This document shows, one piece after another, positions 2,744 to 41,089 of a stretch of 64,000 nt of DNA. Positions within the stretch are counted from its first letter, which is position 1. Every line of letters begins with the position of its first letter. A program made the position numbers and the translations under genes. Origin of the DNA: a virus; IMG/VR virus record IMGVR_UViG_3300031950_000001, positions 1 to 64,000 of that record; one strand, given 5' to 3'. Below the pieces are notes generated by a model. It was not told where the DNA came from. It was given only the letters and a program-made list of their open reading frames with translations, and did not search any database.

Positions 2744-4396
2744 ATGAAGCTTGCGGCTTTGTGCATCACATATAACCGCCCCCATCTATTGGGGGAGCTT
2801 ATTCAGTGCTTCTTAGCACAGGACTATCCTAAGGAGCTCCGGGAGCTTATTATTCTCGATGATGCCGGTCAGTATGACAATCAGGAAGGTAATGGCTGGC
2901 GTCTTATTTCGATTCCTAGAAGATTCCATACCCTCGGCGAAAAACGGAATGCGTGTGCCGCCTTGGCTAGCCCCGATGTAGAGGGATTTTTAGTTGCCGA
3001 TGATGACGATATTTATCTTCCGCATTGGTTTTCGGCGTGTGCCCGCGCCCTAAAAGAGGGCGATTTTTGTAGGCCTAGTCTAGTACTGACTCTCGAAGGG
3101 GATAAGTTCGTTGCGAAATCGACGGCTGGTGGGGTATTCCATCCCGGATGGGCGTATAGGAAATCGGCCTTTTATCGTGTTGGCGGCTATCGCGACATCA
3201 ATGCCGGGGAAGATCAGGATTTTGGACGTCGACTTCTTGCCAGCGGGGTCAAAGTCGTCGATCCGTGCCAATACTATCCTCCTTATCTTTATTACCGGTG
3301 GGATATTTCCAATACCTATCACGCTACCTCTGCGTCCTATGATGCATTAGGACGAATGAAAATCGAAAAATGCCATCGCATCGAGATTAAATGGTCTAAA
3401 CCCTGGAGCAAACTGCCTATTATTCTTCCAGGCGGACAACGAATCAATCAACCCACCATCCGCGACGTACACGCATATCATGTGTCCGCAGGGCCGAAAC
3501 GCGTCGATCTTATTAGGCCCATATTGCATCCTGATAATAGCGGTCCCATTATGGGGATGTATGCTCTGCAAAAGCTTCTGCGAAGGAAGATCGAATCAGG
3601 CTTAAAGTGGTTGTCTATTGTAACAAACCCCTCCAGCAAGCAAGTACTGCCGTGGTTTTGGTGGGTAGGCGATAGGGATAAAGCGTCGAAGTGGATTGAT
3701 TTGGGGCTGCCGTTTGTCCAGGGTCCAAATGCACTATTTATCCGCGCCCGTACTCCCAGAATCGATTCGTTGGAGTGTAAGCTACTAGATTCCTCGTTAT
3801 GTAAGATGACGTTTTGTCATAGCGAGTGGTATCGTGATCTCATCCTAAAACAACGAGGTCCTGAGAATACGTCTCCAATCGTACTTTGGCCGTATCCTGT
3901 AGATGTTTGGCCGGAAGGCCCGCTTCTTCCGGAATACGATCTTTTAATCTATGTCAAAAATTTTGTCCCTCCCGGACTACCCGAATTTCTAGCCGAGCGA
4001 TTTCCTAATAGCAAAATTATTCAATACGGACATTACCAAAGAGAAGAGCTCTTTGAGATCGCCCGACGTTCTAAAGCATGTGCGTATCTCGCGGAAGACG
4101 AATCCGGCGGGATTGCTACGGCTGAGATATTTCTGTCTGGGTGTCCTATTGTAGGCGTGAAAACAGGTGCGCCGTTCATTATCGATGGTCTTACCGGTCT
4201 TTTTGTCGAAAAGCTGCCTAATCCTAGTCCGCAAAATGACGAGCAGAAGGAGCTTCTGGGGGATTATCTCTTCGCCATACGGAAGGCTCAGGAGTTCGAT
4301 CGTAAAACCGTTCGCGATGCCGCAGCCGAGAAATTTGATAATGAGAAAATTGTGAAGACCATTCTTGACGCCCTAGAGCTGGCGCGATCTTCATGA
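2744..4396 (+). CDS. Two-domain glycosyltransferase (GT2-like plus GT4-like)
   Basis: A 550-residue protein. The N-terminal half begins KLAALCITYNRPHLL and has the acidic DDDD stretch near residue 86, the pattern of a GT-A family 2 transferase. The C-terminal half (about 330-550) has a GT-B layout ending with ESGGIATAEIFLSGCPIVG near residue 453, the E-x7-E-like donor site of GT4 enzymes. Two transferases fused in one chain suggest sequential addition of two sugars. The stop overlaps the radical SAM gene by 4 bases, so the two are probably coupled. The acceptor is unknown. Confidence 0.75.
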   Translation: MKLAALCITYNRPHLLGELIQCFLAQDYPKELRELIILDDAGQYDNQEGNGWRLISIPRRFHTLGEKRNACAALASPDVEGFLVADDDDIYLPHWFSACARALKEGDFCRPSLVLTLEGDKFVAKSTAGGVFHPGWAYRKSAFYRVGGYRDINAGEDQDFGRRLLASGVKVVDPCQYYPPYLYYRWDISNTYHATSASYDALGRMKIEKCHRIEIKWSKPWSKLPIILPGGQRINQPTIRDVHAYHVSAGPKRVDLIRPILHPDNSGPIMGMYALQKLLRRKIESGLKWLSIVTNPSSKQVLPWFWWVGDRDKASKWIDLGLPFVQGPNALFIRARTPRIDSLECKLLDSSLCKMTFCHSEWYRDLILKQRGPENTSPIVLWPYPVDVWPEGPLLPEYDLLIYVKNFVPPGLPEFLAERFPNSKIIQYGHYQREELFEIARRSKACAYLAEDESGGIATAEIFLSGCPIVGVKTGAPFIIDGLTGLFVEKLPNPSPQNDEQKELLGDYLFAIRKAQEFDRKTVRDAAAEKFDNEKIVKTILDALELARSS

Positions 4397-5112
4397 CCGA
4401 TTGGACGCCCAAAACCGGAAAAGCCGAATGGCATCTTACTTATAGATGCAATCTGCGGTGCGTCGGTTGCAATCGGCTCACCCACTTGTTTCCCAATCTC
4501 GATATTCCGGATATGACTCTAGATGACGCAGCACGATTCTGTAGAGAAGGTCCGAAATTCGGGTTTCATACAATCATCATTATCGGCGGCGAACCAACGC
4601 TTCATCCCGATTTTTTAAGTTTTGTGAAATTAGCCCGGAAGCATTTTCCGACGGTTCAACTGTTTTCGAACGAGTATACCGAAGATACCCGGCTTTTGGT
4701 AAAATGGGCCGTTGCCCAAGGAGTCATAAAAGTTCATTCAGCGAAGACCACATCATGTGTCCATCATATTTTGGATCAATGTGTCGCCCCCGTCGATTGC
4801 GGTATTCAGCGCGAGCCTTGCCGGTTTTGTTCGTGCTATCCTGGTGCTTGCGGCATTTCTGTTGATTCGCTCGGTTATACGATGTGCTGTTGTGGGGGTG
4901 CTGTTGATACAGCGCTCGGACTAAACGCTCGCGCAAAACAATTAAGTCAGCTTTTTAATAACGATTTTGCAAAACGGCAATTGGACGCGATGTGCTCGAG
5001 ATGTGGCTTTGATATGGGCATCTATACGCAACACGGTCATCTTGTCGAACGTCATTGTGGTGTTCCGATGTCAAAAACATGGATCGAGGCATGGAAAAAA
5101 CGCGGCATTTAA
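4393..5112 (+). CDS. Radical SAM protein with Cys-rich C-terminal half
   Basis: A 239-residue protein with C-N-L-R-C-V-G-C (Cys 19, 23, 26), the CX3CX2C motif that binds the 4Fe-4S cluster and S-adenosylmethionine in radical SAM enzymes, and a GGEPTLHPDF motif near residue 66. The second half has many cysteines (CRFCSCYPGAC, YTMCCCGG, CSRCGF), likely binding auxiliary iron-sulphur clusters as in SPASM-type enzymes. It overlaps the upstream glycosyltransferase by 4 bases, so it may modify a sugar, peptide or nucleotide in the same pathway. The substrate cannot be inferred. Confidence 0.8.
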   Translation: MTDWTPKTGKAEWHLTYRCNLRCVGCNRLTHLFPNLDIPDMTLDDAARFCREGPKFGFHTIIIIGGEPTLHPDFLSFVKLARKHFPTVQLFSNEYTEDTRLLVKWAVAQGVIKVHSAKTTSCVHHILDQCVAPVDCGIQREPCRFCSCYPGACGISVDSLGYTMCCCGGAVDTALGLNARAKQLSQLFNNDFAKRQLDAMCSRCGFDMGIYTQHGHLVERHCGVPMSKTWIEAWKKRGI

Positions 5113-5180
5113 AGATGGGAAGGATTTTTAGTTAAGAGCACTTGAATTTTTTAACTGTTAATTGGTAGACTAAAAGACGA

Positions 5181-7680: not shown

Positions 7681-7717
7681 CTAAAAGTTCCGTTCGATTT
7701 GTGGCATTTAAATATGG
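7681..7717 (+). promoter_or_regulatory. Array-type promoter motif
   Basis: CTAAAAG (7681) and GGCATTTAAATATGG (7703) have a pitch within one base of the other cassettes. An 11-bp perfect hairpin (AAATCTAGCCC/GGGCTAGATTT) follows in the leader. Confidence 0.5.
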
Positions 7718-7802
7718 AGCTCAAAATCTAGCCCATATTGGGCTAGATTTGGGCTTCTTTTTACTTTTTTTTTTTTCTTTCGCTACAAAAAAAAGACGGT
7801 TT

Positions 7803-7859
7803 AGCCTTGCCCGATTTTTTCCCGCCAATCGGGAGTAAGGCTTGTTAGTGAACGGCGGG
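7803..7859 (+). promoter_or_regulatory. Pseudoknot leader (copy 1)
   Basis: AGCCTT..CCGAT (7803-7815) pairs with ATCGG..AAGGCT (7828-7842). The loop sequence CCCGCC (7821-7826) can pair with downstream GGCGGG (7854-7859), giving an H-type pseudoknot. Because GGCGGG is followed by a T-run, the same pairing could act as a terminator, so this may be an attenuator or riboswitch. The ribosome site AAGGAGG of the 7892 gene follows directly. Confidence 0.6.
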
Positions 7860-7891
7860 GTGTTTTTTAGTTTTTTTTAAGGAGGTGTGTT

Positions 7892-10230: not shown

Positions 10231-10268
10231 GCTAAAAAAAAGTCGCCAAATACGGCATTTAAATATGG
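10231..10268 (+). promoter_or_regulatory. Array-type promoter motif
   Basis: GCTAAAAA (10231) precedes GGCATTTAAATATGG (10254) at the array pitch within one base. GGCCTGG/CCAGGCC forms the first leader hairpin. Confidence 0.55.
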
Positions 10269-10287
10269 CCTGGGCGTCCAGGCCGCT

Positions 10288-10345
10288 GCTCCGATTTTTT
10301 TACCCGCCGAAAGTCGGAGCTGCGATGCGAAGAAAAAGGGCGGGT
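10288..10345 (+). promoter_or_regulatory. Pseudoknot leader (copy 3)
   Basis: GCTCCGA (10288-10294) pairs with TCGGAGC (10314-10320). Loop ACCCGCC (10302-10308) pairs with GGCGGGT (10339-10345). Nine T follow, so the second stem could also terminate transcription just before the ribosome site of the ring-nuclease gene. Confidence 0.65.
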
Positions 10346-10374
10346 GATTTTTTTTTCGTTTAAGGAGTTTTTTT

Positions 10375-10851: not shown

Positions 10852-10887
10852 TTAAAGTATTATATTAATAAGGGCATTTAATATTGG
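10852..10887 (+). promoter_or_regulatory. Array-type promoter motif
   Basis: TTAAAG (10852) and GGCATTTAATATTGG (10873) keep the array pitch. GGAGCCTAA/TTAGGCTCC forms the first leader hairpin. Confidence 0.5.
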
Positions 10888-10907
10888 GAGCCTAATGGTT
10901 AGGCTCC

Positions 10908-10958
10908 GGCCTCAATTTTTTACCCCGCCGGAAATTGAGGCCATACGTAAATGGCGGG
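10908..10958 (+). promoter_or_regulatory. Pseudoknot leader (copy 4)
   Basis: GGCCTCAATTT (10908-10918) pairs perfectly with AAATTGAGGCC (10932-10942). Loop CCCGCC (10924-10929) pairs with GGCGGG (10953-10958). A T-run and AAGGAAGG follow. Confidence 0.65.
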
Positions 10959-10987
10959 TTGGCCACTTTTTTAAGGAAGGGTTCGCT

Positions 10988-11838: not shown

Positions 11839-12015
11839 ATGAGTCGTAAAGGTGAGCGCGTTAAAGAGTTTCTATTTCGGTTTTCGATTGGTTTTTTGTC
11901 AGCCAATGTCTATCTCGCACTTGCACGCGATGATTGGCCCCTTGCCTCGACAATAATTCTGATAATAGCATGGGCGATTGGATACAAATACTGGAAGAAA
12001 GCCGAGTGCAAGTAG
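11839..12015 (+). CDS. Two-helix mini membrane protein, 58 aa
   Basis: ATG 11839 follows AAAGGAGG. The basic N-terminus (MSRKGERVKEF) is followed by two hydrophobic helices separated by ARDDWP, then a YKYWKKAECK tail. It has the same layout as the other array mini proteins but lacks the dense hairpins in its coding sequence. It sits 16 bases after the 138-aa gene and is probably co-transcribed with it. Confidence 0.7.
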   Translation: MSRKGERVKEFLFRFSIGFLSANVYLALARDDWPLASTIILIIAWAIGYKYWKKAECK

Positions 12016-12028
12016 AACCCTAAAAAAA

Positions 12029-12079
12029 GGGCCGGGTTTGGTCAGCCAAAACTGCCAGACCCGGCCCCTGTGTTTTTTT
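12029..12079 (+). terminator. Terminator after 58-aa gene
   Basis: GGGCCGGGT (12029-12037) pairs with ACCCGGCCC (12059-12067), with an inner TTGG/CCAA pairing, then a T-run at 12073-12079. Confidence 0.85.
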
Positions 12080-12099
12080 AGAACGAAGGAGTCGCAAAA

Positions 12100-12240
12100 A
12101 TGCGAATTTTGCTTGTTGGGGTTGCGTGTTTGTTAAGCGGAATTATTGGTGCGCTTTACTGCTTCGAGCTGTGGCACATGGTGCTATTAGGGCTGGCTAC
12201 GCTTGCTGCAATTAGCTTTGCGATTACTAAAGTTGATTAA
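12100..12240 (+). CDS. Two-helix mini membrane protein, 46 aa
   Basis: ATG 12100 follows GAAGGAG by 9 bases. MRILLVGVACLLSGIIGALY forms the first helix, CFELWHM the turn, and MVLLGLATLAAISFAI the second. The N-terminus could be mistaken for a signal peptide, but the second helix and a short tail fit the array mini-protein plan. It is the only member with an acidic tail (KVD). Confidence 0.65.
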   Translation: MRILLVGVACLLSGIIGALYCFELWHMVLLGLATLAAISFAITKVD

Positions 12241-12285
12241 CCTTATAAACTTTGTCGTCTTGTAGTCTAATGAGCTTGCAAAAAT

Positions 12286-12303
12286 TTTGATTCCGGAATC
12301 AAA
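12286..12303. repeat. Recurrent palindrome (perfect core)
   Basis: TTTGATTCCGGAATCAAA lies 45 bases after the 12240 stop and just before the next promoter motif. Confidence 0.9.
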
Positions 12304-12313
12304 AACAGCCGGA

Positions 12314-12347
12314 GCTAAATCTTTTACCGTTTTAAGGCGTTTAATGA
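12314..12347 (+). promoter_or_regulatory. Array-type promoter motif
   Basis: GCTAAATC (12314) and GGCGTTTA (12336) start exactly 22 bases apart. Confidence 0.5.
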
Positions 12348-12348
12348 C

Positions 12349-12498
12349 GGTGATCGCGATCCCTCCTCTCCTACCGCTGGGAGAGGACGGGAATCGTGAT
12401 CACTACGCAGGTCAAGGGGAGCACACCGGTCTACCTGCGAGTATGCGGGTTACCGAGAACCCCAGCCATTACCAGCAACCGGTATGGACTTTTTTTTG
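12349..12498 (+). ncRNA. Structured RNA family, member A (short; leader of 54-aa gene)
   Basis: GTGATC..CGATCCC pairs with GGGAATCGTGATCAC around an inner CCTCTCC/GGAGAGG stem; this first domain is nearly identical to member B. GCAGGT/ACCTGC follows, and a terminator-like CCATTACC/GGTATGG hairpin ends in GGAC plus eight T. The T-run is immediately upstream of the ribosome site of the 12515 gene, so this copy may be an attenuating leader rather than a separate RNA. Confidence 0.6.
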
Positions 12499-12514
12499 AA
12501 AGGGAGAGTGGAAA

Positions 12515-12679
12515 ATGGTGGACATTGGTTTGTGGTTTCTGATGTTGGCCGGTGCGGCCGCTACCCGCGAGTTCATTGCGGATGGCGACCTTGCCATGGC
12601 ACATGCAACAACCGTCGCCATGATCGTTATGGCGTTTGTTGCACTAATTTATCGACTGATCCGCAAAGAAGGCTCCTAG
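12515..12679 (+). CDS. Two-helix mini membrane protein, 54 aa
   Basis: ATG 12515 follows AAAGGGAG. MVDIGLWFLMLAGAAATREF begins the first helix, the turn is IADGDLAMAH, the second helix is VAMIVMAFVALIY, and the tail is basic (RLIRKEGS). A GGCGAC/GTCGCC stem spans the middle of the gene. Expression probably requires readthrough of the structured RNA member A ahead of it. Confidence 0.65.
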   Translation: MVDIGLWFLMLAGAAATREFIADGDLAMAHATTVAMIVMAFVALIYRLIRKEGS

Positions 12680-12696
12680 CCCTACCCCATGAATAA

Positions 12697-12867
12697 GGCG
12701 ATTTCGAGGGTGCTGAAAGCCTAAACCCTTATTGGCAACGCGGCGTGCGCAAGCTGCAAGCGCACCGCGGTAAAGACGGCACGATTTATTTCACGCTGCC
12801 TGCAGAAGCAATGGTCGACTTTGAAAAAGGCTCCACTTCGGCCGAAGCTAAATCTTTTGCCATTTAA
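12697..12867 (+). pseudogene. Possible AbrB-like fragment without a start
   Basis: An open frame with no usable start or ribosome site contains VRKLQAHRGKDGTIYFTLPA, which resembles the swapped-hairpin core of SpoVT/AbrB DNA-binding proteins (R-K-L-Q...Y-x-T-L-P). It ends inside the next promoter motif. It looks like the 3' remnant of a transcription-factor or antitoxin gene overwritten by the RNA cassette. Confidence 0.3.
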
Positions 12868-12883
12868 AGGCATTTAATGACGG
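12847..12883 (+). promoter_or_regulatory. Array-type promoter motif
   Basis: GCTAAATC (12847) and GGCATTTA (12869) start exactly 22 bases apart, directly before RNA member B. Confidence 0.55.
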
Positions 12884-12890
12884 TGATCGC

Positions 12891-13090
12891 GATCCCACCT
12901 CTCCTACCGCGGGGAGAGGGCGGGAATCGTGATCACTACGCAGGTCATCCGCCGCTCCGGAGGGAGTGGCGGATGAGTGGCGTCCGAAGTCGCCGCCGAA
13001 AGGTACCCGGCGGCGGCTGAGGTCAATACGGGCCACGGCCGGGCCCGGAAACCCGTCTATCCTTGGCCGGATGGATCGGGACTTTTTTTA
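12891..13090 (+). ncRNA. Structured RNA family, member B
   Basis: A roughly 200-nt RNA with no reading frame. Its stems are GTGATC-CGATCCC with its complement around CTCTCC/GGAGAG, CATCCGCC/GGCGGATG, CGCCGCC/GGCGGCG, and a final CCCGTC..ATCGGG terminator ending in GGAC plus T-run and AGCTA. It shares the unpaired blocks GTGGCG-Y-CCGAA and GAGGTCA-like (TGAGGTCA) with members C and D, while the flanking stems differ in sequence but stay paired. Confidence 0.7.
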
Positions 13091-13139
13091 GCTAGCGTGG
13101 TAAGGATCATAGGCACTCATTTTTTAGGACTGGCCGACG

Positions 13140-13174
13140 GCTAAAGATTCGCCGATATTGCGGCATTTACATAT
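13140..13174 (+). promoter_or_regulatory. Array-type promoter motif
   Basis: GCTAAAGA (13140) and GGCATTTA (13162) start exactly 22 bases apart. Confidence 0.6.
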
Positions 13175-13389
13175 GGCCCGGGCGTCTAATGCTCCTTGGG
13201 GCGCCCGGGCCGTTTGTAAAAGGAGGTTTTTTAAAAGCTCTTTGAAACGGGTCGCGACCCCGGCGACCTAAAATAATCGGAGGGGCGCCCCTCTGCGGAG
13301 GGGCTGGCTGTCAGGTCTCGCCCACACCTGACGGCCCATAGTCGAAATCCAGCCCTGGCAAGGCTGGGAGCGATTATGAAGTTTTTTTT
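13175..13389 (+). ncRNA. Structured non-coding RNA F (multibranch)
   Basis: A leader hairpin GGCCCGGGCG/CGCCCGGGCC (13175-13184 with 13202-13211) is followed by AAAGGAGG but no plausible start codon. ATAATCG (13273-13279) pairs with CGATTAT (13371-13377), closing a multibranch domain with CCCCTC/GAGGGG, CGTCAGGTG-type and CCAGCC-type hairpins, then eight T. It may be a mini-gene cassette that lost its reading frame or a genuine RNA gene. Confidence 0.55.
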
Positions 13390-13415
13390 AGCCATTGACA
13401 ACGCTGCTTAACCCA

Positions 13416-13446
13416 CCTAAAGATTTGTCAGTTTTAAGGCATTTAA
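13416..13446 (+). promoter_or_regulatory. Array-type promoter motif
   Basis: CCTAAAGA (13416) and GGCATTTA (13438) start exactly 22 bases apart. Confidence 0.55.
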
Positions 13447-13448
13447 TT

Positions 13449-13723
13449 GTGTGGCGCCGCACAACCGTCTTCCTCCCCTGCCGCTGAGGTGGGGGTCGTG
13501 GCGGCTCCCGGGGTTTTCCGGACACCCCGTGGAGGAACCCGGACGAGGGGGGAAACGCGGCGCCTGCGCAGTCCGTCCATACAGTCGGTCCGGACGACTG
13601 TTGGACGGGTGGCGCCCGAAGCATCCGTCGCAACGCGACGGGTGCAGAGGTCATCTACCGGACTCGTGAGAGCACCGGGAAACTCGCTCTGGTCTCCCCG
13701 TCGGCCGAGCGAGACTTTTTTTT
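13449..13723 (+). ncRNA. Structured RNA family, member C
   Basis: A 275-nt RNA. TCCGTCC pairs with GGACGGG around CAGTCG/CGACTG. GTGGCGCCCGAA is followed by GCATCCGTCG with CGACGGGTGC, then AGAGGTCA. GGAGGAACCCGGACGAGG precedes these, as in member D. A CTCGCTC/GAGCGAG terminator with GAC plus eight T and AGCTA ends it. Overlapping frames on both strands are by-products of the GC-rich stems and have no ribosome site. Confidence 0.7.
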
Positions 13724-13793
13724 AGCTAGCGAGCCCTTTTTTGGTCAATGCCCTATTAAGGGATTTTTTTTACGTTTCCGCACAGAAAAAAAA

Positions 13794-13880
13794 AGATAAT
13801 TTTGCAGTTCGGCTCGTGCTTAAATATAGACAGGACCGTCCATGTTTTTTCCGGAGCGGTCCGGAAGGCGATTCTGTCCT
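13794..13880 (+). promoter_or_regulatory. Array promoter variant and two-tier leader hairpin
   Basis: AAAGAT and TGCTTAAATATAG keep roughly the array pitch. The leader stem GACAGGACCGTCC (13829-13841) pairs with GGCGATTCTGTC (13867-13878), with CCGGA/TCCGG inside. Confidence 0.45.
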
Positions 13881-13912
13881 GGGGTCTTCCTTTTTTTAGG
13901 AGGAAACAAAAA

Positions 13913-14062
13913 ATGGACGACACCGATCTATGGGGTCTGACGGGATTCCTAGCCGCGTTAGGCTGCTACGGGGCCCTCAACGACATTGTGCCTCTAGCTA
14001 TAGCCGCGACGCTAATCATCATCATCGTGGCCATGTTTAAGCTATTCAAGAAAAATAAATAG
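13913..14062 (+). CDS. Two-helix mini membrane protein, 49 aa
   Basis: ATG 13913 follows AGGAGG. MDDTDLWGLTGFLAALGCYG forms an acidic start and helix one, ALNDIV the turn, AIAATLIIIIVAMF helix two, and KLFKKNK the basic tail. The tail-in-cytoplasm orientation predicted by the positive-inside rule gives both termini inside. The leader hairpin class is shared with the 14567, 14921, 15565 and 17251 genes. Confidence 0.7.
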   Translation: MDDTDLWGLTGFLAALGCYGALNDIVPLAIAATLIIIIVAMFKLFKKNK

Positions 14063-14097
14063 AAAAAAATTCGTCAATTTTTTAAGGCATTTAATAA

Positions 14098-14368
14098 CGG
14101 GAGCCGCGATCCCGCATCGTTCCCGTCCGGCCAAACGGGAACGTGGCGGCTCCTTCGGACAATAGGGCGGTCCGAAGGAGGAACCGGACGAGGAGGAACT
14201 ACGCGGCTCCATTGCGCAGATCATCCCTTGTTTCGTCGCCCTACGAACAAGGGGTGAGTGGCGCCCGAACCTCGCGGCATCGAGGGGTGCTGCGAGGCGA
14301 GGTCAGTACTGGCTCGGCCGGGCCAGGAAACCTGTCAGCTTCCTCGTCGGCTGAACAGGACTTTTTTA
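14098..14368 (+). ncRNA. Structured RNA family, member D
   Basis: A 271-nt RNA preceded by GGCATTTA (14086). GGAGCCGC pairs with GCGGCTCC around GTTCCCGT/ACGGGAAC. CCTTCGGAC pairs with GTCCGAAGG. CCCTTGTT..CGT pairs with ACG..AACAAGGG. GTGGCGCCCGAA is followed by CCTCGCGGCA/TGCTGCGAGG and then GAGGTCAGTAC. The terminator pairs CCTGTCAGC with GCTGAACAGG and ends GGAC plus T-run and AGCTA. Stem sequences differ from B and C while pairing is kept, which supports a conserved RNA fold. Confidence 0.75.
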
Positions 14369-14482
14369 GCTATCTAGCAGAATTTTCTTGTGTAGCCTTT
14401 TTTTGGCTATTTGGGTATTTTCCCCTTTCTGTTTCCAAGATCGAAAGCCGCTACATACGGCTGTTAGCATTGATAGCTAAAA

Positions 14483-14529
14483 ACGGGACCGCAAGGGTTT
14501 TTTCCGGATGACCGGAAAGGCGGTTCCGT
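14483..14529 (+). promoter_or_regulatory. Two-tier leader hairpin
   Basis: ACGGGACCGC (14483-14492) pairs with GCGGTTCCGT (14520-14529) around TTTCCGG/CCGGAAA, the same leader plan as four other mini-protein genes. Confidence 0.6.
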
Positions 14530-14566
14530 CTTTTTGTTTCTCTTTTTTTAGAAAGGAGAGTAAAAG

Positions 14567-14731
14567 ATGAGGATGGGGGTGGAGTGTGTCAAGGCTATTG
14601 CATACGGGCTTGTATTTTACGCACTGACGCTTTTATGCGTCTGGACGGCCGTAATGTCCTATTGGCCTCTTACGATTATCACCGGCATGGGACTGGCTGG
14701 GGTTACCTACAAAATTGCAAAGACACCCTAA
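14567..14731 (+). CDS. Two-helix mini membrane protein, 54 aa
   Basis: ATG 14567 follows GAAAGGAG. Helix one spans about 6-30 (AIAYGLVFYALTLLCVWTAV), the turn is MSYWP, and helix two is LTIITGMGLAGVTY followed by the tail KIAKTP. It is a member of the array mini-protein family by length and topology. Confidence 0.65.
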   Translation: MRMGVECVKAIAYGLVFYALTLLCVWTAVMSYWPLTIITGMGLAGVTYKIAKTP

Positions 14732-14809
14732 GTTTCCACCTTTATGAGGCCGTCCTGAATATGTAGGTTCAAGAGCGAAAAGCTGGGGTCGCTTAATTGG
14801 CCGAAATCG

Positions 14810-14844
14810 GCTAAAGATTAGCCGATTTCTTGGCATTTACAAAT
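14810..14844 (+). promoter_or_regulatory. Array-type promoter motif
   Basis: GCTAAAGA (14810) and GGCATTTA (14832) start exactly 22 bases apart. A perfect hairpin, AAATCGGCTAA/TTAGCCGATTT, spans the upstream box. Confidence 0.6.
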
Positions 14845-14892
14845 GGACGGGACCGCCAGGGTTTCCGGAGCGGTCCGGAGGCGGTTCCGTCC
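14845..14892 (+). promoter_or_regulatory. Two-tier leader hairpin
   Basis: GGACGGGACCGCC (14845-14857) pairs with GGCGGTTCCGTCC (14880-14892) around CCGGA/TCCGG. Confidence 0.65.
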
Positions 14893-14920
14893 TGGTCCCT
14901 TTTAAGAAAGGGGAAACAAA

Positions 14921-15073
14921 ATGAGGGACTACATCCTAGCCGGTGTTTGGATTGCCGCGTTCGTGGCCGCCCTAGCGGCCGCGACGCAATGCTGGGTTGA
15001 AGGAAACTGGACTGCCGCGATCGCGGTGGCAGTCATTTTCGGCGGCCTCACCTACTATATAGAAACGAGGTGA
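14921..15073 (+). CDS. Two-helix mini membrane protein, 50 aa, hairpin-saturated
   Basis: ATG 14921 follows AGAAAGGGG. MRDYILAGVWIAAFVAALAA forms helix one, the turn is WVEGNW, helix two is AAIAVAVIFGGLTYY, and the tail IETR is short. The coding sequence is built from hairpins: 14961-14970 with 14975-14984 extended by ATTGC/GCAAT, an ACTGCC/GGCAGT stem, and 15044-15052 with 15069-15077, whose 3' arm contains the stop codon. Confidence 0.7.
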   Translation: MRDYILAGVWIAAFVAALAAATQCWVEGNWTAAIAVAVIFGGLTYYIETR

Positions 15074-15080
15074 GGCCCCA

Positions 15081-15123
15081 CACCACCCCCTGAACAAGGA
15101 GGTTCAGGGTGGTGGGTTTTTTT
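15081..15123 (+). terminator. Terminator of 50-aa gene
   Basis: CCACC and CTGAAC (5' arm) pair with GTTCAG and GGTGG, followed by TTTTTTTAG. A near-identical terminator ends the 15565 and 17251 cassettes. Confidence 0.85.
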
Positions 15124-15124
15124 A

Positions 15125-15337
15125 GTTATTAGTTAGTATCCTTGTCCCGAGCTTCCCATCCAGGTATTCAAACACCCTTTTCCAATTCCCCCAGATCATG
15201 TCATCATCAACTAGTTCATGCAACCGCTTTCTTGCTGACTCTATAATAAAAACCCTTAAATCTTCCTCATATGCCAATTTCGTAGCGTAATAGGCCATTT
15301 CGTCTAAATCATTTGCTAGAAACCCTGTTACTCGATT
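15125..15337 (-). pseudogene. Duplicated 3' fragment of the GT4 glycosyltransferase gene
   Basis: On the minus strand this encodes TGFLANDLDEMAYYATKLAY to the C-terminus, almost identical to the end of the 15774-16841 gene, and it ends in the same LTNN. The fragment stops at its 5' side exactly where RNA-family sequence (GAGGTCAGTAC, read on the plus strand) begins, so it arose by duplication and recombination rather than simple decay. Confidence 0.75.
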
Positions 15338-15412
15338 GAGGTCAGTACGAGCCACGATCATACCAGGAAAAAAACCTGTCAGCTTCCTCGTCGTCTGAAG
15401 AGGACTTTTTTT
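15338..15412 (+). ncRNA. Structured RNA family, member E (3' remnant)
   Basis: Only the last third is present: GAGGTCAGTAC, CCAGGAAA, ACCTGTCAGCTTCCTCGTCG and AGGAC plus T-run, matching member D. The 5' part has been replaced by the duplicated glycosyltransferase fragment, and no promoter is visible. Confidence 0.65.
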
Positions 15413-15459
15413 AAACTAGTATGGTCAGAAGCAACCCCCATCTTGAGGATTGGCCAACG

Positions 15460-15494
15460 GCTAAAGATTAGCCGCTTTCGCGGCATTTACAAAT
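15460..15494 (+). promoter_or_regulatory. Array-type promoter motif
   Basis: GCTAAAGA (15460) and GGCATTTA (15482) start exactly 22 bases apart. Confidence 0.6.
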
Positions 15495-15541
15495 GGACGG
15501 GACCGCCAGGGTTTCCGGGCGGCCGGAAGGCGGTCTCGTCC
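15495..15541 (+). promoter_or_regulatory. Two-tier leader hairpin
   Basis: GGACGGGACCGCC (15495-15507) pairs with GGCGGTCTCGTCC (15529-15541) around CCGG/CCGG. The inner stem differs from the 14845 copy but stays paired. Confidence 0.65.
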
Positions 15542-15564
15542 TGGGCTCCGAAAAGGAGGGAGAA

Positions 15565-15720
15565 ATGAGCAACATTTCGGTCCTGATTGTACTGCTCGTA
15601 CTTTCCATCGGCGCCGTCGCAACGACGGCGCCGATGGGACAGTTTTCCGCCGGGCTGATGACCGCGTCCGCGGTCATCAGCTTGGCGGCGCTCGGCGAGG
15701 CTGTAGCGCGAAAGCTATAG
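15565..15720 (+). CDS. Two-helix mini membrane protein, 51 aa, hairpin-saturated
   Basis: ATG 15565 follows AAAGGAGGG. MSNISVLIVLLVLSIGAVA forms helix one, TTAPMGQFS the turn, AGLMTASAVISLAALGEA helix two and VARKL the tail. The coding sequence includes a 14-bp perfect stem (15606-15619 with 15623-15636, three-base loop), a 9-bp perfect stem (15657-15665 with 15670-15678) and a 15-bp stem (15693-15707 with 15714-15728) containing the stop codon. Confidence 0.7.
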   Translation: MSNISVLIVLLVLSIGAVATTAPMGQFSAGLMTASAVISLAALGEAVARKL

Positions 15721-15732
15721 CCTCGCCGGTGA

Positions 15733-15775
15733 ACCCACCCCCTGAACAAGGAGGTTCAGGGTGGTGGGTTTTTTT
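15733..15775 (+). terminator. Terminator of 51-aa gene
   Basis: CCACCCCCTGAAC pairs with GTTCAGGGTGG, followed by TTTTTTTAG. It overlaps the stop of the convergent glycosyltransferase gene. Confidence 0.85.
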
Positions 15776-16841
15776 AGTTATTCGTCAGTATTCTTGTCCC
15801 GAACTTCCCATCCACGTATTCAAACACCCTCTTCCAATTCCCCCATATTACATTATCATCAACCAATTCATGCAATCGCTTTCTTGCCGACTCTATGATG
15901 AAGACCCTTAAATCTTCCTCGTATGCCAATTTCGTAGCGTAATAAGCCATTTCGTCTAGATCGTTCGCTAGAAACCCTGTTACTCCGTGTACGATCATCT
16001 CTTTCCAGCCCCAGTCGTTATGGGCTACTATAGCCACTCCTGTTGCCATAGCCTCTAGTCCAGCCCTTGACCAGTTTTCGTTTGCCTGGTCGCTGGCTTG
16101 TATCATACAGTGCAATTGGGACAAGAATTGCTGCGCTGTCTCAGCTCGGCTGGGTAGTACGGTAGCCCACGCGGGGGGTTTTCCTACTTTACGTTCTACT
16201 TCCTTGCTCCAAGCCATTATCCTTGCATGTATGGGGTGGATGATCCGTTCGTATAATCTCCAAGTCCCGCGATGGTACTTATCGGGTGCAGGTCGGCTAA
16301 TTCTTCCTACGACGAATGTTTCTCCTCTTTTATGTCGTAGGGGATTAAAGGGCCATTCATCTAATGCGAACGCTGCTCGTACTAAGAAGCCTTGTTCGTC
16401 GGTAACGCCGTATTCTTTTAGCTGAGGCATAAGAAGGTTTTGTTGAAACTGGCTCTGGAAGACATAGGCATCGAAGGGTTTTTGCATTCGGCTATAATGC
16501 CGCCGCTCTTCATCGAAGAGCCAGCACATGCAGCCTACCCAGATGATTTTGCAATCCATGCGTCGTAGGAGGTCTGCCGAGCGTAGGAATTCGCTGTTGC
16601 AGAAGGAAATAACAGGGGCGCCCCTAAGCTCGTTGAGGTCGAGGAGACGCGTAGGGCCGCTTACTTGAAGAGTTTGGCAGCCTATAGAATCGCACTTTGT
16701 GCGATATTCAGGCAGGGGCGCCCCCCACGTGGGGATGAGGGTGACTTCAAGTCCAAACTTCCTCCAGAGCTTAAGAGTGTGCCAGCACTCGGTATTAGCC
16801 CCACCAACATCGCCGGGATAACCAATGACAAAGATGCCCAT
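15774..16841 (-). CDS. GT4-like glycosyltransferase, 355 aa
   Basis: The start MGIFVIGYPGDVGGANTECW gives a classic GT-B opening with the glycine-rich G-D-V-G-G-A-N loop; upstream in-frame codons derive from a palindrome copy and were not used. The C-terminal half has EAMATGVAIVAHNDWGWKEM and GVTGFLAND, the donor-site region of GT4 enzymes. It lies alone on the minus strand inside the array and ends in a terminator shared with the convergent cassette. A 3' fragment is duplicated at 15125-15337. The acceptor is unknown. Confidence 0.8.
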   Translation of the reverse strand: MGIFVIGYPGDVGGANTECWHTLKLWRKFGLEVTLIPTWGAPLPEYRTKCDSIGCQTLQVSGPTRLLDLNELRGAPVISFCNSEFLRSADLLRRMDCKIIWVGCMCWLFDEERRHYSRMQKPFDAYVFQSQFQQNLLMPQLKEYGVTDEQGFLVRAAFALDEWPFNPLRHKRGETFVVGRISRPAPDKYHRGTWRLYERIIHPIHARIMAWSKEVERKVGKPPAWATVLPSRAETAQQFLSQLHCMIQASDQANENWSRAGLEAMATGVAIVAHNDWGWKEMIVHGVTGFLANDLDEMAYYATKLAYEEDLRVFIIESARKRLHELVDDNVIWGNWKRVFEYVDGKFGTRILTNN

Positions 16842-21573: not shown

Positions 21574-24500
21574 ATGACAACGCCCGAACTTATCGACATA
21601 AGCGACGTTAAGACCATACGCCAGAGGATCTTCGACTCTGTGCGTAACGCGTTTTTATCAACTCCGGCTTATACGCAAGGGCCGTGGTCTATTGAAATCT
21701 CGGACGTCGACTATAAAGACTCGGAACCCGAAGAGGAGCTTCTTAGTCCTTTTTCACACAAAAAGGCTATCGTAACAAACGCAACCCTTGCTAGGGACCT
21801 TTACGGAACCATCAAGATCACGACTCCCGACGGCGTTATCAAAAAACGTACCCTTCTTGCCAAGGTTCCCTATCTTACCGACCGGGGCGTCTTTATTATT
21901 AATGGCGTTGAATACGCCATTACAAACCAGCAGCGCTTAAAGCCGGGTGTTTACGTACGGTTCCGTCAAACTGGGGAGCCTGAGGCTTTCATTAACCTTC
22001 CTGGGCATAAGACCCACCGCTACGTCCTTGATCCCAGAACGGGTATTTTCTACATTCAAGCCGGACAAGCCACATTCCGTCTTTATCCCATTCTTAAGGC
22101 GATGGGCGTTACCGACGAGGAAATACGTAACGCCTGGGGTGCTGACCTCTTTGCGCGCAATGCCGTCGAAAAATCAGACGACCTTCGGCGATTTGCAACA
22201 AGAATGTTCGGCTCTCCCGACGTCGATATTAGCCGAGAATTTACCCAAGTCCCGGTCGCAGCCGATGTGATGCGGCGTAATCTCGGTCTGATTCAAAACT
22301 ACCTTGATAAGCGCGCTGCGCTGGCCTCAACCGTCAAGATGATTCAGCTATTGCAAGGCCAAGCCAAAGAAGATGACCGGGACTCGATTGCCAATCAGCA
22401 GTTCCTGGGACCAGAGGATATCTTTGCCGACGGCGTGCCTATGAAAATGCGCCTTATTTTGCGCAATATCCTCTGGAAGGCCATGCGCAATCCCAAAAAA
22501 GAAATCATTCCCCCTCGACCGGCCCAGGCAATTATCGATCATGTTATCCGCGCCTCGGGTCTTATGTCGGCTCCTGCGGAGATCAACCCCGTCGAAATCT
22601 TGGACCACCTTTTCAAAGTAACCCGAATGGGGGAGGGCGGTATCGGTGCTACGGAAGCAATTCCATATTCGGCACGCGACGTCCATGCTACGCAATTCGG
22701 CTTTATCGATCCTGTTACTACGCCCGAATCCCTAAGAGTGGGGGTAGATACGCGGTTTACCGTTACTGCCAAGCGTGGTGCCGACGGTCTCCTCTATATT
22801 CCTGCCGTCGATGTAAAGACCGGAAAGAAGACCTGGCTAAACTCCGAGCAAACCGAAGACGTTACGATTGCCTTCCCAGGAGAACTTGAGACGGGCAGGA
22901 AGTTTGTTCGAGCCATTCATAAAGGCTCCGAAGCCATTGTTCCGCGCGATCAAGTAACGCATTATATTAAGGACGCTACGCACATCTTTGGTCCTTTGGC
23001 GTCCTTAATCCCTATGAAAAGCGCTTGCTTCCCGCAACGGGTTGCCATGGGAAGCCGTTTTATTACGCAAGCGCTTCCTCTTATTAATAGAGAAGTCCCC
23101 CTCGTTCAGTCCGTCGATGCTGAAGGCACACCTTTCGTTGCCAAATTTGGTCCGTATGCCGGTGCTGTTAAAAGCCCGTGCAAAGGAGTTGTGAGAAAGG
23201 TTACGCCCGACTTTATCGAAGTTTATGATTCTGACGCTAAAAAGACACGTAAGATTTGGATTCACAACAACACGCCCTATGCCCGGCAAACCGCCCTTTA
23301 TAACGAGCCTTTAGTAAAACCCGGCGATGTCATAAAACCGGGTCAACTATTGGCTTATAGCAATTTCACGGATCAAAACGGCAACCTTGCCATGGGCGTA
23401 AACGCCAAGATTGCCTATATGGCGACAGGCGATACGTATGAAGACGCCTTTGTCATCTCCGAATCCTTTGCCAAACGACTCACGGCTGAGAACCTATTCG
23501 TCTACGAACATAAACCCAGCGAAGGTTCTGGAAAACCCTTCTATGTCTCCCTTTTCCCCAATAAACTTACTTCCGAGGCCCTAGAACGATACACGGAAGA
23601 AGGGGTTGCCAAGCCTGGTACTGTTTTGTCAAAGGGCGATCCCATCGTTCTTAGCGTCAAAATGCTTCCCATTACAACCGCCAGGGCGTCCCATCGTATG
23701 TTTGTGGATGATAGCATCACATGGGATTATGACTCGCCTGGTATCGTGATTGCAGCAGGTAAGACCAAGGATGGTTATATCGCTATGGTAAAGTCCTTGT
23801 TTGAGACCCAACAAGGGGATAAGATCGCAGGCCAATATGGCAATAAAGGCGTTGTCATCATAAAGCCCGATAGCCAGATGCCGATCGGCGAAGACGGTAA
23901 GCCGGTCGATATCGTCGCGTCGCCGTTTATTATCTCTCGAGCCAATATTGGCCAAATCTACGAAGCACTCTTAGGTAAGGTTGCCAAAAAGCTGGGGCGG
24001 CCTATTTATGTCAAGGACTTCGAGAACGCCGACAAATTGCATCAGTACGTTACGGAGATGCTCAAAAAGCACGGGGTAAAGGATACCGAAGTCCTTACCG
24101 ATCCTGCTACCGGCAGGAAAATCCGGGCGCTTACCGGTTACGGCTACATCCTTCGGCTCTGCCATATTGCCGAAGATAAGCTTCAGGCCGTTGATGAAGC
24201 CATTGCGTCCAGCGTTGAAGATATTCCAACGGTAGGGGAAACAGGTAAAGCAAAACGACTCGGTCTATTAGAGCTTAATGCTCTATTGGCGCATGGCGCA
24301 TATGACACCATTACCGATGCCGCGCTCATCCGAGGACAGGCCAACGATGAAGCATGGCGCCAGTTTATGACTGGCTATAACCTTCCGCAGCCTAAAGTAC
24401 CCCACATTTGGCATAAGTTCGTAGCCCTATTAAGAGGGGCAGGCATTAATCCTATTCAAGAGCGGTCTGGAATTAGGCTTCTGGCGCTACGGGATAAGGA

Positions 24501-25935
24501 TATTGATACCCTGGCTGGTAAGCGCTATATCCAGAACTCCGAAACGGTTCGCGTCTTTAGCGACGGATTCCGGACGGTTCAAGGTGGGCTTTTCGATGAT
24601 GGGCTTACAGGCGGGCTAGCCGGAACGCGATGGGCGGCTATTAAACTACCGGAGCCTGTTCCCAATCCCGTTATGCTGGAACTGTTAGGGCGGCTCATCG
24701 GGGTTAGCGAAAAAGACTTTATTAGCATGTGGGCAGGAGAAATCCCTATCCCAGAGCGCTACCGGACCGGCAAAGAGCCTATCACTGGTCCCCAAGCCGT
24801 CCTTAATCTATTTAAAAACTATAACGTCAGCCGCGAAATTGAACGAACGAAAGAAGAGCTCCAAGTTGCGGCTCCGTCAAAACGCGCTTCGCTTATCAAA
24901 AAGCTCAATTACCTAGAAGGACTCAAGAAGTTTGGTATTCATCCTTCGGAGCTCTTCTGGACCAAGGTCCCGGTTACCCCGCCCATCTTCCGTCCTATTT
25001 CGATGATTAAGGACGGTACCCTTATCGTTAATGATGCCAACTATCTCTATAAAGAGCTCCTGGATTTCATTTCGGCTTATAGCGAGATTGCAGGAGAACT
25101 CAGCCAACTGACCGATGAGCGGAAAACACTTATTAATATATTAAGAGGTCTAGCCGGTCTTGATGATCCCCATAACTACGCTCTCAAACGACAAGGGATT
25201 AAAGGACTGCTGGCTACGGTTGTCGGCCCTAGTCCCAAGGCCGGCATCATGCAGCGTAAGATGCTGGGTATCAGCGCTACGCTAGCCGGTCGGGCGGTTA
25301 TTACGCCGAATAGCTCATTAGACATTGATGAGATCGGGTTGCCCGAAGACGCGGCTTGGGTGGCGTATAAGCCGTTTATCATTCGCGACCTGATGCGTCG
25401 AGGACTACCCGATAGCGTTCTTCGGAATGTTCCGCCGGCTCTTCGGCAATCTCCCTTCCTTGTGGCCAATCTGCTTGTCAAGGAAAAGCATCCATATGCC
25501 CGAGAATCCCTCCAACGGGTTATTGAGCAACGCCCGGTTGTCGTAAACCGTGCGCCTGTGCTGCATAAATACGGGATTATGGCGTTTAAGCCCGTACTTA
25601 CGCAAGGAAAGACCATTGAGATAAGCCCGCTTATTACTCAAGCTTTTGGGGCGGACTTTGACGGGGATACAATGCAATTCCATGTTCCGGCGTCAGACGA
25701 TGCCGTAAAAGAAGCATTTACGAAGCTACTACCGTCAAAGAACCTCTTTAAGGCAGCAACCCTGACGGAGCCGGTTTATACCCCTCAACAGGACTATCTC
25801 ATTGGTCTTTGGTATGCGCGCCGCGTCGATAAAAATAAACCGGTTAAGGTATTTTCGACGAAGCAAGACGCACTCGCTGCATTTGCAAGGGGCGAAGTCG
25901 CTATCGATCAGCCGATCAAGATTCTCGAAAGCTAA
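21574..25935 (+). CDS. Phage RNA polymerase: fused beta and N-terminal beta-prime
   Basis: A 1453-residue chain with beta-subunit motifs first: VPYLTDRGVFIINGVEYAI, DPVTTPESLRVG, and GDKIAGQYGNKGVV near residue 748. It then passes directly into beta-prime: GGLFDDGLTGG..WAAIKLPEPV near 1000-1030, TPPIFRPISMIKDG, GRAVITPNSSLDIDEIGLP, RPVVVNRAPVLHKYGIMAF, and the catalytic ADFDGD at residues 1360-1365 that holds the active-site Mg. The beta-prime zinc-ribbon cysteines are missing. It ends just before the bridge helix, which is encoded at 39239-41089, 13 kb downstream. No sigma factor is seen nearby. It could be a virion polymerase or act after early transcription. Confidence 0.95.
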   Translation: MTTPELIDISDVKTIRQRIFDSVRNAFLSTPAYTQGPWSIEISDVDYKDSEPEEELLSPFSHKKAIVTNATLARDLYGTIKITTPDGVIKKRTLLAKVPYLTDRGVFIINGVEYAITNQQRLKPGVYVRFRQTGEPEAFINLPGHKTHRYVLDPRTGIFYIQAGQATFRLYPILKAMGVTDEEIRNAWGADLFARNAVEKSDDLRRFATRMFGSPDVDISREFTQVPVAADVMRRNLGLIQNYLDKRAALASTVKMIQLLQGQAKEDDRDSIANQQFLGPEDIFADGVPMKMRLILRNILWKAMRNPKKEIIPPRPAQAIIDHVIRASGLMSAPAEINPVEILDHLFKVTRMGEGGIGATEAIPYSARDVHATQFGFIDPVTTPESLRVGVDTRFTVTAKRGADGLLYIPAVDVKTGKKTWLNSEQTEDVTIAFPGELETGRKFVRAIHKGSEAIVPRDQVTHYIKDATHIFGPLASLIPMKSACFPQRVAMGSRFITQALPLINREVPLVQSVDAEGTPFVAKFGPYAGAVKSPCKGVVRKVTPDFIEVYDSDAKKTRKIWIHNNTPYARQTALYNEPLVKPGDVIKPGQLLAYSNFTDQNGNLAMGVNAKIAYMATGDTYEDAFVISESFAKRLTAENLFVYEHKPSEGSGKPFYVSLFPNKLTSEALERYTEEGVAKPGTVLSKGDPIVLSVKMLPITTARASHRMFVDDSITWDYDSPGIVIAAGKTKDGYIAMVKSLFETQQGDKIAGQYGNKGVVIIKPDSQMPIGEDGKPVDIVASPFIISRANIGQIYEALLGKVAKKLGRPIYVKDFENADKLHQYVTEMLKKHGVKDTEVLTDPATGRKIRALTGYGYILRLCHIAEDKLQAVDEAIASSVEDIPTVGETGKAKRLGLLELNALLAHGAYDTITDAALIRGQANDEAWRQFMTGYNLPQPKVPHIWHKFVALLRGAGINPIQERSGIRLLALRDKDIDTLAGKRYIQNSETVRVFSDGFRTVQGGLFDDGLTGGLAGTRWAAIKLPEPVPNPVMLELLGRLIGVSEKDFISMWAGEIPIPERYRTGKEPITGPQAVLNLFKNYNVSREIERTKEELQVAAPSKRASLIKKLNYLEGLKKFGIHPSELFWTKVPVTPPIFRPISMIKDGTLIVNDANYLYKELLDFISAYSEIAGELSQLTDERKTLINILRGLAGLDDPHNYALKRQGIKGLLATVVGPSPKAGIMQRKMLGISATLAGRAVITPNSSLDIDEIGLPEDAAWVAYKPFIIRDLMRRGLPDSVLRNVPPALRQSPFLVANLLVKEKHPYARESLQRVIEQRPVVVNRAPVLHKYGIMAFKPVLTQGKTIEISPLITQAFGADFDGDTMQFHVPASDDAVKEAFTKLLPSKNLFKAATLTEPVYTPQQDYLIGLWYARRVDKNKPVKVFSTKQDALAAFARGEVAIDQPIKILES

Positions 25936-39000: not shown

Positions 39001-39285
39001 ATGCGAATTGTACTCGACAATAAAGAATTTGAATGTAAGAAGTTCGTCGTATTCGACAAGTTTGGCAACGCGGTCGCTGCCGGATATGATCATGCTGATG
39101 TCCTCGTGTTTGATACATGTGCCGGCCCCGATTTTCCGAAAATTCTCTCCATTGTTGGCTATCCAGATCGTCTTCCAACACAGATCATTGATACAAAACC
39201 ATTAATACCGGAGCTTTCTCCTATCAAGCCTGACACAGGTGCCGACCATGCAGGAAACGACCATTGGACAACTCTTAATTTCTAG
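39001..39285 (+). CDS. Unknown protein, 94 aa
   Basis: Not recognised. MRIVLDNKEFECKKFVVFDK reads as a small beta-rich domain. It overlaps the start of the beta-prime C-terminal gene by about 40 bases, indicating translational coupling. Its N-terminus loosely recalls the M-x-I-x-D-F start of family I, but there is no membrane hairpin. Confidence 0.55.
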   Translation: MRIVLDNKEFECKKFVVFDKFGNAVAAGYDHADVLVFDTCAGPDFPKILSIVGYPDRLPTQIIDTKPLIPELSPIKPDTGADHAGNDHWTTLNF

Positions 39286-41089
39286 TACCCTGCCGTCGGA
39301 TATTAAGCTTCCTGACGAAATCACAAAGAAGACGATCAATAGTTTCTATGGGGAGCTTGCTCGCAAATACCCCGATCGCTACGGCGAAATTACGAAAAAG
39401 TTAAATCAAATTGCCGTTCAGGCCCTTTATTCCAATGACGGCGCCTCGTTTAGCCTAGATGATCTTCGACCTCTTCCTTCTTCTTACTCTTATAGACCGG
39501 TTATTCTAAAAGAGATCGAGCAGATCGCGTCCAGCAAATTGCCGGATCGCGAAAAGCGCAAAAAAATCGCCGACGCCATTCTTCGTCATTCGCAAAATCT
39601 CCTTCAACTCACGCAAGACGAGGCCAAAGCCGCGAATAATCGATTCTACGAATATGTCTATTCCGGCGCTCGCGGTAATCCCGCCCAGCTTAAGCGGCTT
39701 ATTACGGGGGATACGGCCTACTTTGACCCCTCTGGAGAGGTAGTACCCTTCCCCGTTTTATCTGCGTATTCGGCAGGAGTACCTCCCGCAGAGTTTTGGG
39801 CTGCCTGCTATGGCGCCAGGAAGGGGCTAGCGGATACAAAGCTGGATGTAGCCAGAAGCGGTTATCTTGCCAAGCTTCTCAACCGTGCTACCCATCGGCT
39901 TGTTGTTATCGGCCACGACGCCAAAACAAAAACTCCTTATCCCATTGGTCTTCCTGTAGAGACTCAAGACCCTGATAATATCGGCGCATTTCTCGCACTT
40001 CCGGCAGGAAGATGGCCTGCCGGTACGGAGATAACACCGGCCGTTTATGAAGATCTAAAACGAGACGGTATCAAAAAGATCGTCGTTCGGAGTCCCATTG
40101 CCAGCCCTGCTGTTGATGGAATCTATGCCGTCGATGCCGGAATCCGCGAACATGGTCGTCTCCCCGAAATCGGTAGCATTCCTGGCATGGCGGCGGCCCA
40201 AGCAATCGGCGAACGACTAGCACAGACGTCCTTGAGCTCGAAGCATCTGGGAGGCGTTGTGAAGTTTAGCGGCTTTAGAGTGCTAGAACAGATGCTTAAT
40301 GTTCCGAAATTCTACGTTGGCGGCGCCATTCATAGCCAGGTCGACGGAAAAGTTCGATCTATAGACAAAAATGAAATTGGTCAATGGCGAATTGTAATCG
40401 GAGAACAAGAACATCTAGCACCTCCGTCCCATAAACCCATCGTCAAAGAGGGCGACGTTGTCGAAGCCGGAGACATACTAACGGAGGGTTTGCCCAACCC
40501 GGCAGAGGTAGTAAAGCACAAAGGGGTTGGCGAAGGACGTAGGGCATTTGTTAAAATGTTTTATGAGGCGATGCGTGACGCTGGTCAGCCGGTCCATCGT
40601 CGTAATGTCGAGCTTTTAGCCCGAGGTCTTATCGATCACGTTATTATAACCCAGCCGTTTGGGGGGTTCTATCTCGATGAAATCGTACCCTATGGCGAGG
40701 TTGCTAAGCGATGGACCCCCCGAAAGGGTAGTGTTCGAGTTCCTGTCGACAGCGCGTTAGGCTACTATCTTGAAGTACCCGTTCTTCACTACACGATAGG
40801 GACAAAGATAAAGCCTTCGGTTATCAAAGAGCTTAAAGAGGCGGGAATCAAAGATATTATCGTTCATAGCGATCCGCCTCCGTTTGAGTCATATATGGTT
40901 CGTGCAGCATCTTCGCTTGAGTTTGATCCCAACTGGATGACACGGTTGTTCGGCTCGAACCAAATTCGGGCCTTATTAAGCGCCGTCCGTCAAGGCGCTA
41001 CAGGTGAAATCTACGGTACTAGCTTTGTTCCTGCAAAAGCAATCGGGATTCCGTTGGGGCAGTGGATACGTGGAGTTGTAAATCGCTAA
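39239..41089 (+). CDS. Phage RNA polymerase: C-terminal half of beta-prime
   Basis: A 616-residue protein (GTG start; ATG at 39248 is equally possible). It opens ETTIGQLL, matching the sequence that follows the catalytic site in bacterial beta-prime. The bridge helix YGARKGLADTKLDVARSGYL lies near residue 190. GMAAAQAIGERLAQTSLSSK near 318 is the trigger-loop region, and VEAGDILTEGLPNPAEVVKH and GFYLDEIVPYGEVAKR match later beta-prime segments. The second zinc site cysteines are absent (RSPIASPAVDGIYAVDAG). It must assemble with the 21574-25935 product to form an active enzyme. Confidence 0.95.
   Translation: MPTMQETTIGQLLISSTLPSDIKLPDEITKKTINSFYGELARKYPDRYGEITKKLNQIAVQALYSNDGASFSLDDLRPLPSSYSYRPVILKEIEQIASSKLPDREKRKKIADAILRHSQNLLQLTQDEAKAANNRFYEYVYSGARGNPAQLKRLITGDTAYFDPSGEVVPFPVLSAYSAGVPPAEFWAACYGARKGLADTKLDVARSGYLAKLLNRATHRLVVIGHDAKTKTPYPIGLPVETQDPDNIGAFLALPAGRWPAGTEITPAVYEDLKRDGIKKIVVRSPIASPAVDGIYAVDAGIREHGRLPEIGSIPGMAAAQAIGERLAQTSLSSKHLGGVVKFSGFRVLEQMLNVPKFYVGGAIHSQVDGKVRSIDKNEIGQWRIVIGEQEHLAPPSHKPIVKEGDVVEAGDILTEGLPNPAEVVKHKGVGEGRRAFVKMFYEAMRDAGQPVHRRNVELLARGLIDHVIITQPFGGFYLDEIVPYGEVAKRWTPRKGSVRVPVDSALGYYLEVPVLHYTIGTKIKPSVIKELKEAGIKDIIVHSDPPPFESYMVRAASSLEFDPNWMTRLFGSNQIRALLSAVRQGATGEIYGTSFVPAKAIGIPLGQWIRGVVNR

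Follow-up and report, generated by a model that had tools for sequence, protein, structure and literature searches.

Candidate genes for a new family of structured RNAs arranged in tandem in a tailed-phage genome

A new family of structured RNAs, present in tandem as three full copies, one shortened relative and one decayed fragment, is well supported by the analysis of a 64,000-base stretch of viral DNA (positions 1-64000 in a virus record of 144,055 bases; hereafter the window). Judged from their sequences, the full copies (copies 2-4) are, with high probability, genuine RNA genes belonging to a lineage-restricted family and specify candidate transcripts. We infer that these copies are independent non-coding RNA genes, each transcribed from its own promoter to a defined end, and that their products act in trans, as a scaffold or sponge, through joining segments that bind a protein; the probability of this reading is put at about 0.5. 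To our knowledge, apart from tRNA, tmRNA and a small number of large RNAs, few phage non-coding RNAs have been described.

The major head protein encoded at 57578-58540 identifies the genome as that of a tailed phage. It also encodes a multisubunit RNA polymerase, comprising a fused protein of 1453 residues (21574-25935) and a second part of 616 residues (39239-41089). The closest relative found, a 135,539-base record (G001), has a polymerase that is 83% identical, and the polymerases of the other relatives show about 42% identity or less. A 25-kb stretch of the window genome gave no match in an annotated phage collection.

Results

Members of the array

All members lie on the plus strand. Copy 2 (12882-13089, T-run 13083-13089) carries its joining blocks at 12977-12988 and 13019-13025, copy 3 (13451-13723, T-run 13716-13723) at 13609-13620 and 13647-13653, and copy 4 (14099-14367, T-run 14362-14367) at 14258-14269 and 14299-14305. 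Their predicted promoters occupy 12848-12881, 13417-13450 and 14065-14098, with weight matrix scores of 22.6, 22.4 and 27.2, respectively. Copy 1 (12349-12497) is a shortened relative without the P2 and P3 blocks, composed of a 5' hairpin, AGGTCA, two hairpins and GGAC-T8, and is preceded by a variant promoter at 12315-12348 (GCTAAAT ... GGCGTTTAATGACGG; score 18.3). From promoter to T-run, copies 1-4 measure 149-273 nt. The promoterless 3' fragment at 15338-15412 runs from GAGGTCA to the T-run, is damaged in P4 and P5, and scores 19.8 bits with covariance model R1.

A preliminary description had counted at least four tandem copies plus a remnant, all with the blocks GTGGCG-Y-CCGAA and GAGGTCA. 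This holds for copies 2-4, but copy 1 has neither GTGGCG nor CCGAA and of the shared elements the fifth segment retains just GAGGTCA and the terminator, so that three full copies, one shortened relative and one decayed fragment stand in place of four copies with both blocks. In the window and in the entire 144,055-base record the two blocks occur jointly only at 12977-13025, 13609-13653 and 14258-14305, with 0 joint occurrences expected in shuffled sequence. The start proposed for copy 2, 12891, is better placed near 12882, whereas the described endings are as found, GGAC or AGAC being followed by T6-T8. The segments had also been said to lack reading frames with ribosome sites, and none that is convincing occurs in copies 2-4. 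Since, in addition, the differences in block length between copies are mostly not multiples of three and break any frame, protein coding is disfavoured. A GTG frame at 12396 within copy 1 is not credible, as it reads through the T-run of that copy.

Common fold and compensatory changes

The predicted folds beat those of shuffled sequences in all four copies, with z-scores of -5.4 for copy 1 (12336-12497), -9.3 for copy 2, -4.3 for copy 3 and -5.8 for copy 4. When copies 2-4 are aligned by block, they have a 3' domain of 167 columns in common, with the helices P2, P3, P4 and P5. The order of elements in this part is P2, CCGAA, P3 (10 bp), GAGGUCA, P4, GGAAA, P5 and GACUUU, and P2 consists of 4 bp, an AGN/GUG 3x3 internal loop and at least 7 further bp.

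The earlier claim that the stems differ in sequence yet stay complementary is borne out by the alignment of copies 2-4, in which 12 of the 29 pairs are changed on both sides; the mean in shuffled alignments was 4.1, and none of 500 shuffles reached 12. These figures derive from three related full sequences of one genome, with the register set by hand, N padding and a structure taken from the same sequences. If the partner strand was slid by 1-3 columns, only 0-3 doubly changed pairs remained, and the fraction of paired cells fell from 95.4% in the true register to 35-44%. Compensatory change is thus above both the shuffled and the slid controls, by which the kinship of the copies is only partly controlled. 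P3 alone accounts for six doubly changed pairs, with all cells paired. Throughout copies 2-4 the compensatory changes keep the helices, G-U pairs included, and two more such changes were picked out by eye: U-A to C-G beside the AGN/GUG internal loop of P2, and C-G to A-U in the helix that closes the 5' domain in copies 3 and 4. With copies 2 and 3 as its sole input, a covariance model detected copy 4 with 93 bits (E 2.5e-25), a check that is only partly blind, as the structure had already been seen in all three, and in which E-values are rough.

The invariant GAGGUC is complementary to the invariant GACUUU at the 3' end. On folding the isolated 3' part of copies 2-4, the same three-way junction of a closing helix, P4 and P5 was obtained each time, and according to these models the 3' end is probably such a junction, closed by GAGGUC-GACUUU and abutting the T-run. 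The closing helix would explain why the AC that separates P5 from the T-run is conserved; because its sequence never varies, it has no covariation to support it. When the full-length RNAs are folded, this closure falls 0.5-3 kcal/mol short of the best fold, in which GG reaches over a GAA/NGA internal loop to pair with the CC of CCGAA. With energies so close, a switch between the two pairings of GAGGUCA is possible.

The shortened copy and the promoterless fragment

Copy 1 and copy 2 share 93% identity across 107 nt spanning the promoter and the 5' hairpin, after which copy 1 continues with AGGTCA and a different 3' part. Its sequence suggests a derivative from which P2 and P3 were deleted between the AGGTCA in P2 and the AGGTCA after P3. 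The alternative that copy 1 is unrelated beyond the 5' hairpin was dropped, since the sequence around AGGTCA fits the deletion. Despite the loss of P2 and P3, copy 1 retains AGGUC and GACUU, the closure of which costs 1.4 kcal/mol.

Compared with copy 4, the fragment at 15338-15412 has two substitutions in P5, the terminator stem, and both break pairs. Its P4-P5 part gives a z-score of +0.2 against shuffles, whereas the same part of copy 4 gives a moderate -1.8. The two sequences serve as a natural control, in which pairing is kept where a promoter is present and lost where it is absent. The fragment borders a 251-nt duplicate (15083-15333 and 15735-15985, 91% identity) that repeats the 3' end of the neighbouring glycosyltransferase gene together with its facing terminator.

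A promoter type associated with structured RNAs

Each full copy is preceded by its own phage-type promoter (GGCATTTAA...TGG), which lies 13 nt before the first helix, and carries a T-run at its 3' end. The array promoter had been attributed to at least three segments; four have it (copies 1-4), copy 1 in the form of the variant GGCGTTTA, and the motif is absent from the fragment at 15338-15412. A weight matrix grown from GGCATTTA sites recognizes about 20 strong sites in the window genome and about 12 in G001, with the consensus wtttgcGGCATTTAAwAwTGGG and, in many cases, a CTAAAG-like box upstream. The core pattern occurs 19 times on the plus strand of the window genome and not at all on the minus strand, compared with 0-2 occurrences in Markov genomes. 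At 15 of 20 sites a stem begins at about base 13-14 of the motif, as against 143 of 600 random positions. In G001, the tmRNA found by ARAGORN begins at base 15 of a promoter of the same type (position 61636 in our orientation), an independent marker of an RNA start which indicates that this promoter type makes structured RNAs. The motif, allowing one mismatch, was present in only one of 28 more distant records, as a single occurrence, which suggests that it is a feature of a small lineage.

Search for relatives

The segments had been described as matching no recognized RNA family, and a search of the window with Rfam 15, which includes GOLLD, ROOL, RNase P, 6S, SRP and tmRNA, gave 0 matches; a permissive search of 12000-16000 yielded only chance-level matches under the gathering scores. 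No match to the array was obtained by blastn against phages and plasmids. Four exact-pattern scans of IMG/VR for the family or the promoter revealed no homologue, although records very near the window genome may lie outside these collection scans. The pattern GTGGCGYCCGAA-gap-GAGGTCA gave 12 IMG/VR matches that were all judged from their sequence to be due to chance and have no model support, the 3' block pattern two matches that are both coding, and the 5' domain pattern 0 matches; the promoter-only pattern TTTWAAGGCATTTAAT hit more than 100 stretches, with no relative recognized among the matches listed. In GTDB genomes, model R1 found no relative among the 80 listed matches to GTGGCGYCCGAA-gap-GAGGTCA. 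The same model detected no homologue in 89 other records, most of them with a related RNA polymerase (G001-G010, Salmonella phage Arash, Vibrio phage D69 and 77 records with a related RNA polymerase), and the weak matches, at 9.8 and 7.9 bits, are confined to the P3 hairpin. In the collections scanned, which were IMG/VR, GTDB, phages and plasmids, the family was found in a single genome and in no second lineage.

Around and upstream of the same glycosyltransferase gene, G001 has a tmRNA (L028 13530-13890 on the minus strand, tag AEQPLAIAA, detected by ARAGORN), two tRNA genes and, each driven by a promoter, at least three further structured RNAs (L016 2240-2455, 3870-4080 and 4935-5135), which were not reported as Rfam matches. 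The RNAs at 3870-4080 and 4935-5135 are paralogues, with 3' ends (GCUCUUUUUUU) that can pair with an upstream A-rich strand, and the latter directly adjoins the glycosyltransferase gene. Kinship of the array with these two paralogues was considered and is not claimed, because the only common string, UCCGAAG, sits in a plain hairpin in one of them.

Other elements in the genome

A second structured-RNA family has two copies, at 13229-13390 in the window and at 79273-79480 of the record (CCTAAAATAATCGGAGGGGCG; ATAGTCG...CGAYTATGAAG), and both copies are preceded by a phage promoter and a 5' hairpin. Its stems GGTCGC/GCGACC and GGCCGC/GCGGCC covary, and a viral pattern search gave no relatives, its 9 matches being judged chance. 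Leaders with a CCCGCC-loop hairpin, GGCGGG, a T-run and a ribosome site occur at 7703-7878, 10254-10356 and 10873-10972 of the window and at 126268-126315 of the record, and are probable pseudoknot attenuators before genes. Small hydrophobic ORFs of 46-58 residues with ribosome sites start at 10988, 11839, 12100, 12515, 13913, 14567, 14921, 15565 and 17251; their products are probably membrane-spanning and have no significant Pfam match. The palindrome TTGATTCCGGAATCAA is present 33 times in the 144-kb record (in the window at 6916, 11235, 12287, 17815, 18657 and 20513, with 27 others) and 0 times in G001, whereas TTGACTCCGGAGTCAA is found 30 times in G001 and 0 times in the window record. As both arms have changed together genome-wide, these palindromes look, as expected for such elements, like putative binding sites of a dimeric protein or hairpins.

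Discussion

According to the explanation that we favour, each of copies 2-4 would be read from its own phage-specific promoter into an RNA of about 210-275 nt that starts with the 5' terminal helix and stops at the T-run. The helices vary freely in sequence around joining segments that stay the same, and these segments are therefore most likely, as far as the sequences indicate, a binding site for a host or phage protein. The RNA would act in trans as a scaffold or sponge, with the number of gene copies raising dosage, and copy 1 would have lost the P2/P3 module and now lead into a small membrane-protein gene. The roles put forward in the preliminary description, as decoys, regulators of host machinery or counter-defence RNAs, are possible. 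A specific counter-defence array, in which varied helices and fixed joining segments would saturate an RNA-binding defence or translation factor of the host, is nevertheless considered unlikely; if true, it would give the host no constant sequence to target.

A different and more doubtful explanation is that the RNAs are cis-acting 5' leaders with a conditional terminator, in the manner of an attenuator or riboswitch, which control the genes for the 46-58-residue membrane proteins, GAGGUCA switching between the CC of CCGAA and GACUUU. The small energy difference between these two pairings is in line with such a switch, and the position of copies 1, 3 and 4 upstream of small membrane-protein genes fits a cis role equally. 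ORF 12515, with its ribosome site, starts 17 nt after copy 1 with no promoter in between, and downstream of copies 3 and 4 come ORFs 13913 and 14567, the promoter motifs of which are degenerate and under the matrix cut-off. However, copy 1 is the only one that directly precedes a gene without its own promoter, which makes a leader role plausible for this copy; after copy 2 comes a further strong promoter and no gene for it to lead, and about 190-200 nt with further hairpins and T-runs separate copies 3 and 4, for which a leader role is possible, from their ORFs. Moreover, the ORFs of the same size at 14921, 15565 and 17251 have a promoter and leader without such an RNA.

The same ORFs come into the proposal that the array encodes RNA-RNA regulators acting in trans like type I antitoxins, with GGAAAC pairing to a GUUUCC loop in the leaders of tiny membrane-protein mRNAs. 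The segment CCCGGAAACCC of copy 2 is fully complementary to the leaders of ORFs 15565 (11 nt) and 14921 (10 nt), and in copy 4 a stretch of about 9 nt is complementary to the ORF 17251 leader. Yet the leaders are homologous, so their matches are not independent, the GGAAAC segment was chosen after the fact and is partly held in P4 and P5, copy 3 pairs weakly, and the tiny proteins match no toxin family; we regard such regulation as quite improbable. Still less can be said for GC-rich inverted repeats that arose by chance or serve as recombination or replication elements at the DNA level and mimic RNA genes. The array region is indeed repeat-rich, but every copy is bounded exactly by a promoter and a T-run, the compensatory changes preserve helices with G-U pairs among them, block lengths break any frame, and the copy without promoter is decaying, all of which makes this explanation very improbable.

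Among known systems, the nearest kind is represented by GOLLD and ROOL, structured non-coding RNAs borne by phages or prophages, often near tRNA islands and without known function; GOLLD is often longer than 800 nt and has a conserved 3' region (PMC12286853). The array likewise consists of phage structured RNAs, and tRNAs and a tmRNA occur close to the syntenic locus of G001, but the array RNAs are 150-275 nt, occur as several tandem paralogues and have no Rfam match; they are not members of these families. A likeness to phage tmRNA is suggested by the G001 tmRNA, which is expressed from the same promoter type near the same locus, and it led us to consider a relation of the array RNAs to tmRNA; this was rejected, as they have no tRNA-like part. 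They also have no tag frame, and the window genome gave no tmRNA match. With type I antitoxins and riboswitch-attenuators the array has in common RNAs that are structured, carry a terminator and lie close to ORFs for small membrane proteins, although copy 2 at least stands alone.

The locus yields exact predicted transcripts and a usable covariance model, as well as a phage promoter. It resembles a slot in which the set of structured RNAs changes, and from the comparison with G001 it seems that such RNAs differ between related phages at roughly the same position, which would make this a site at which RNA-based functions of phages could be sought.
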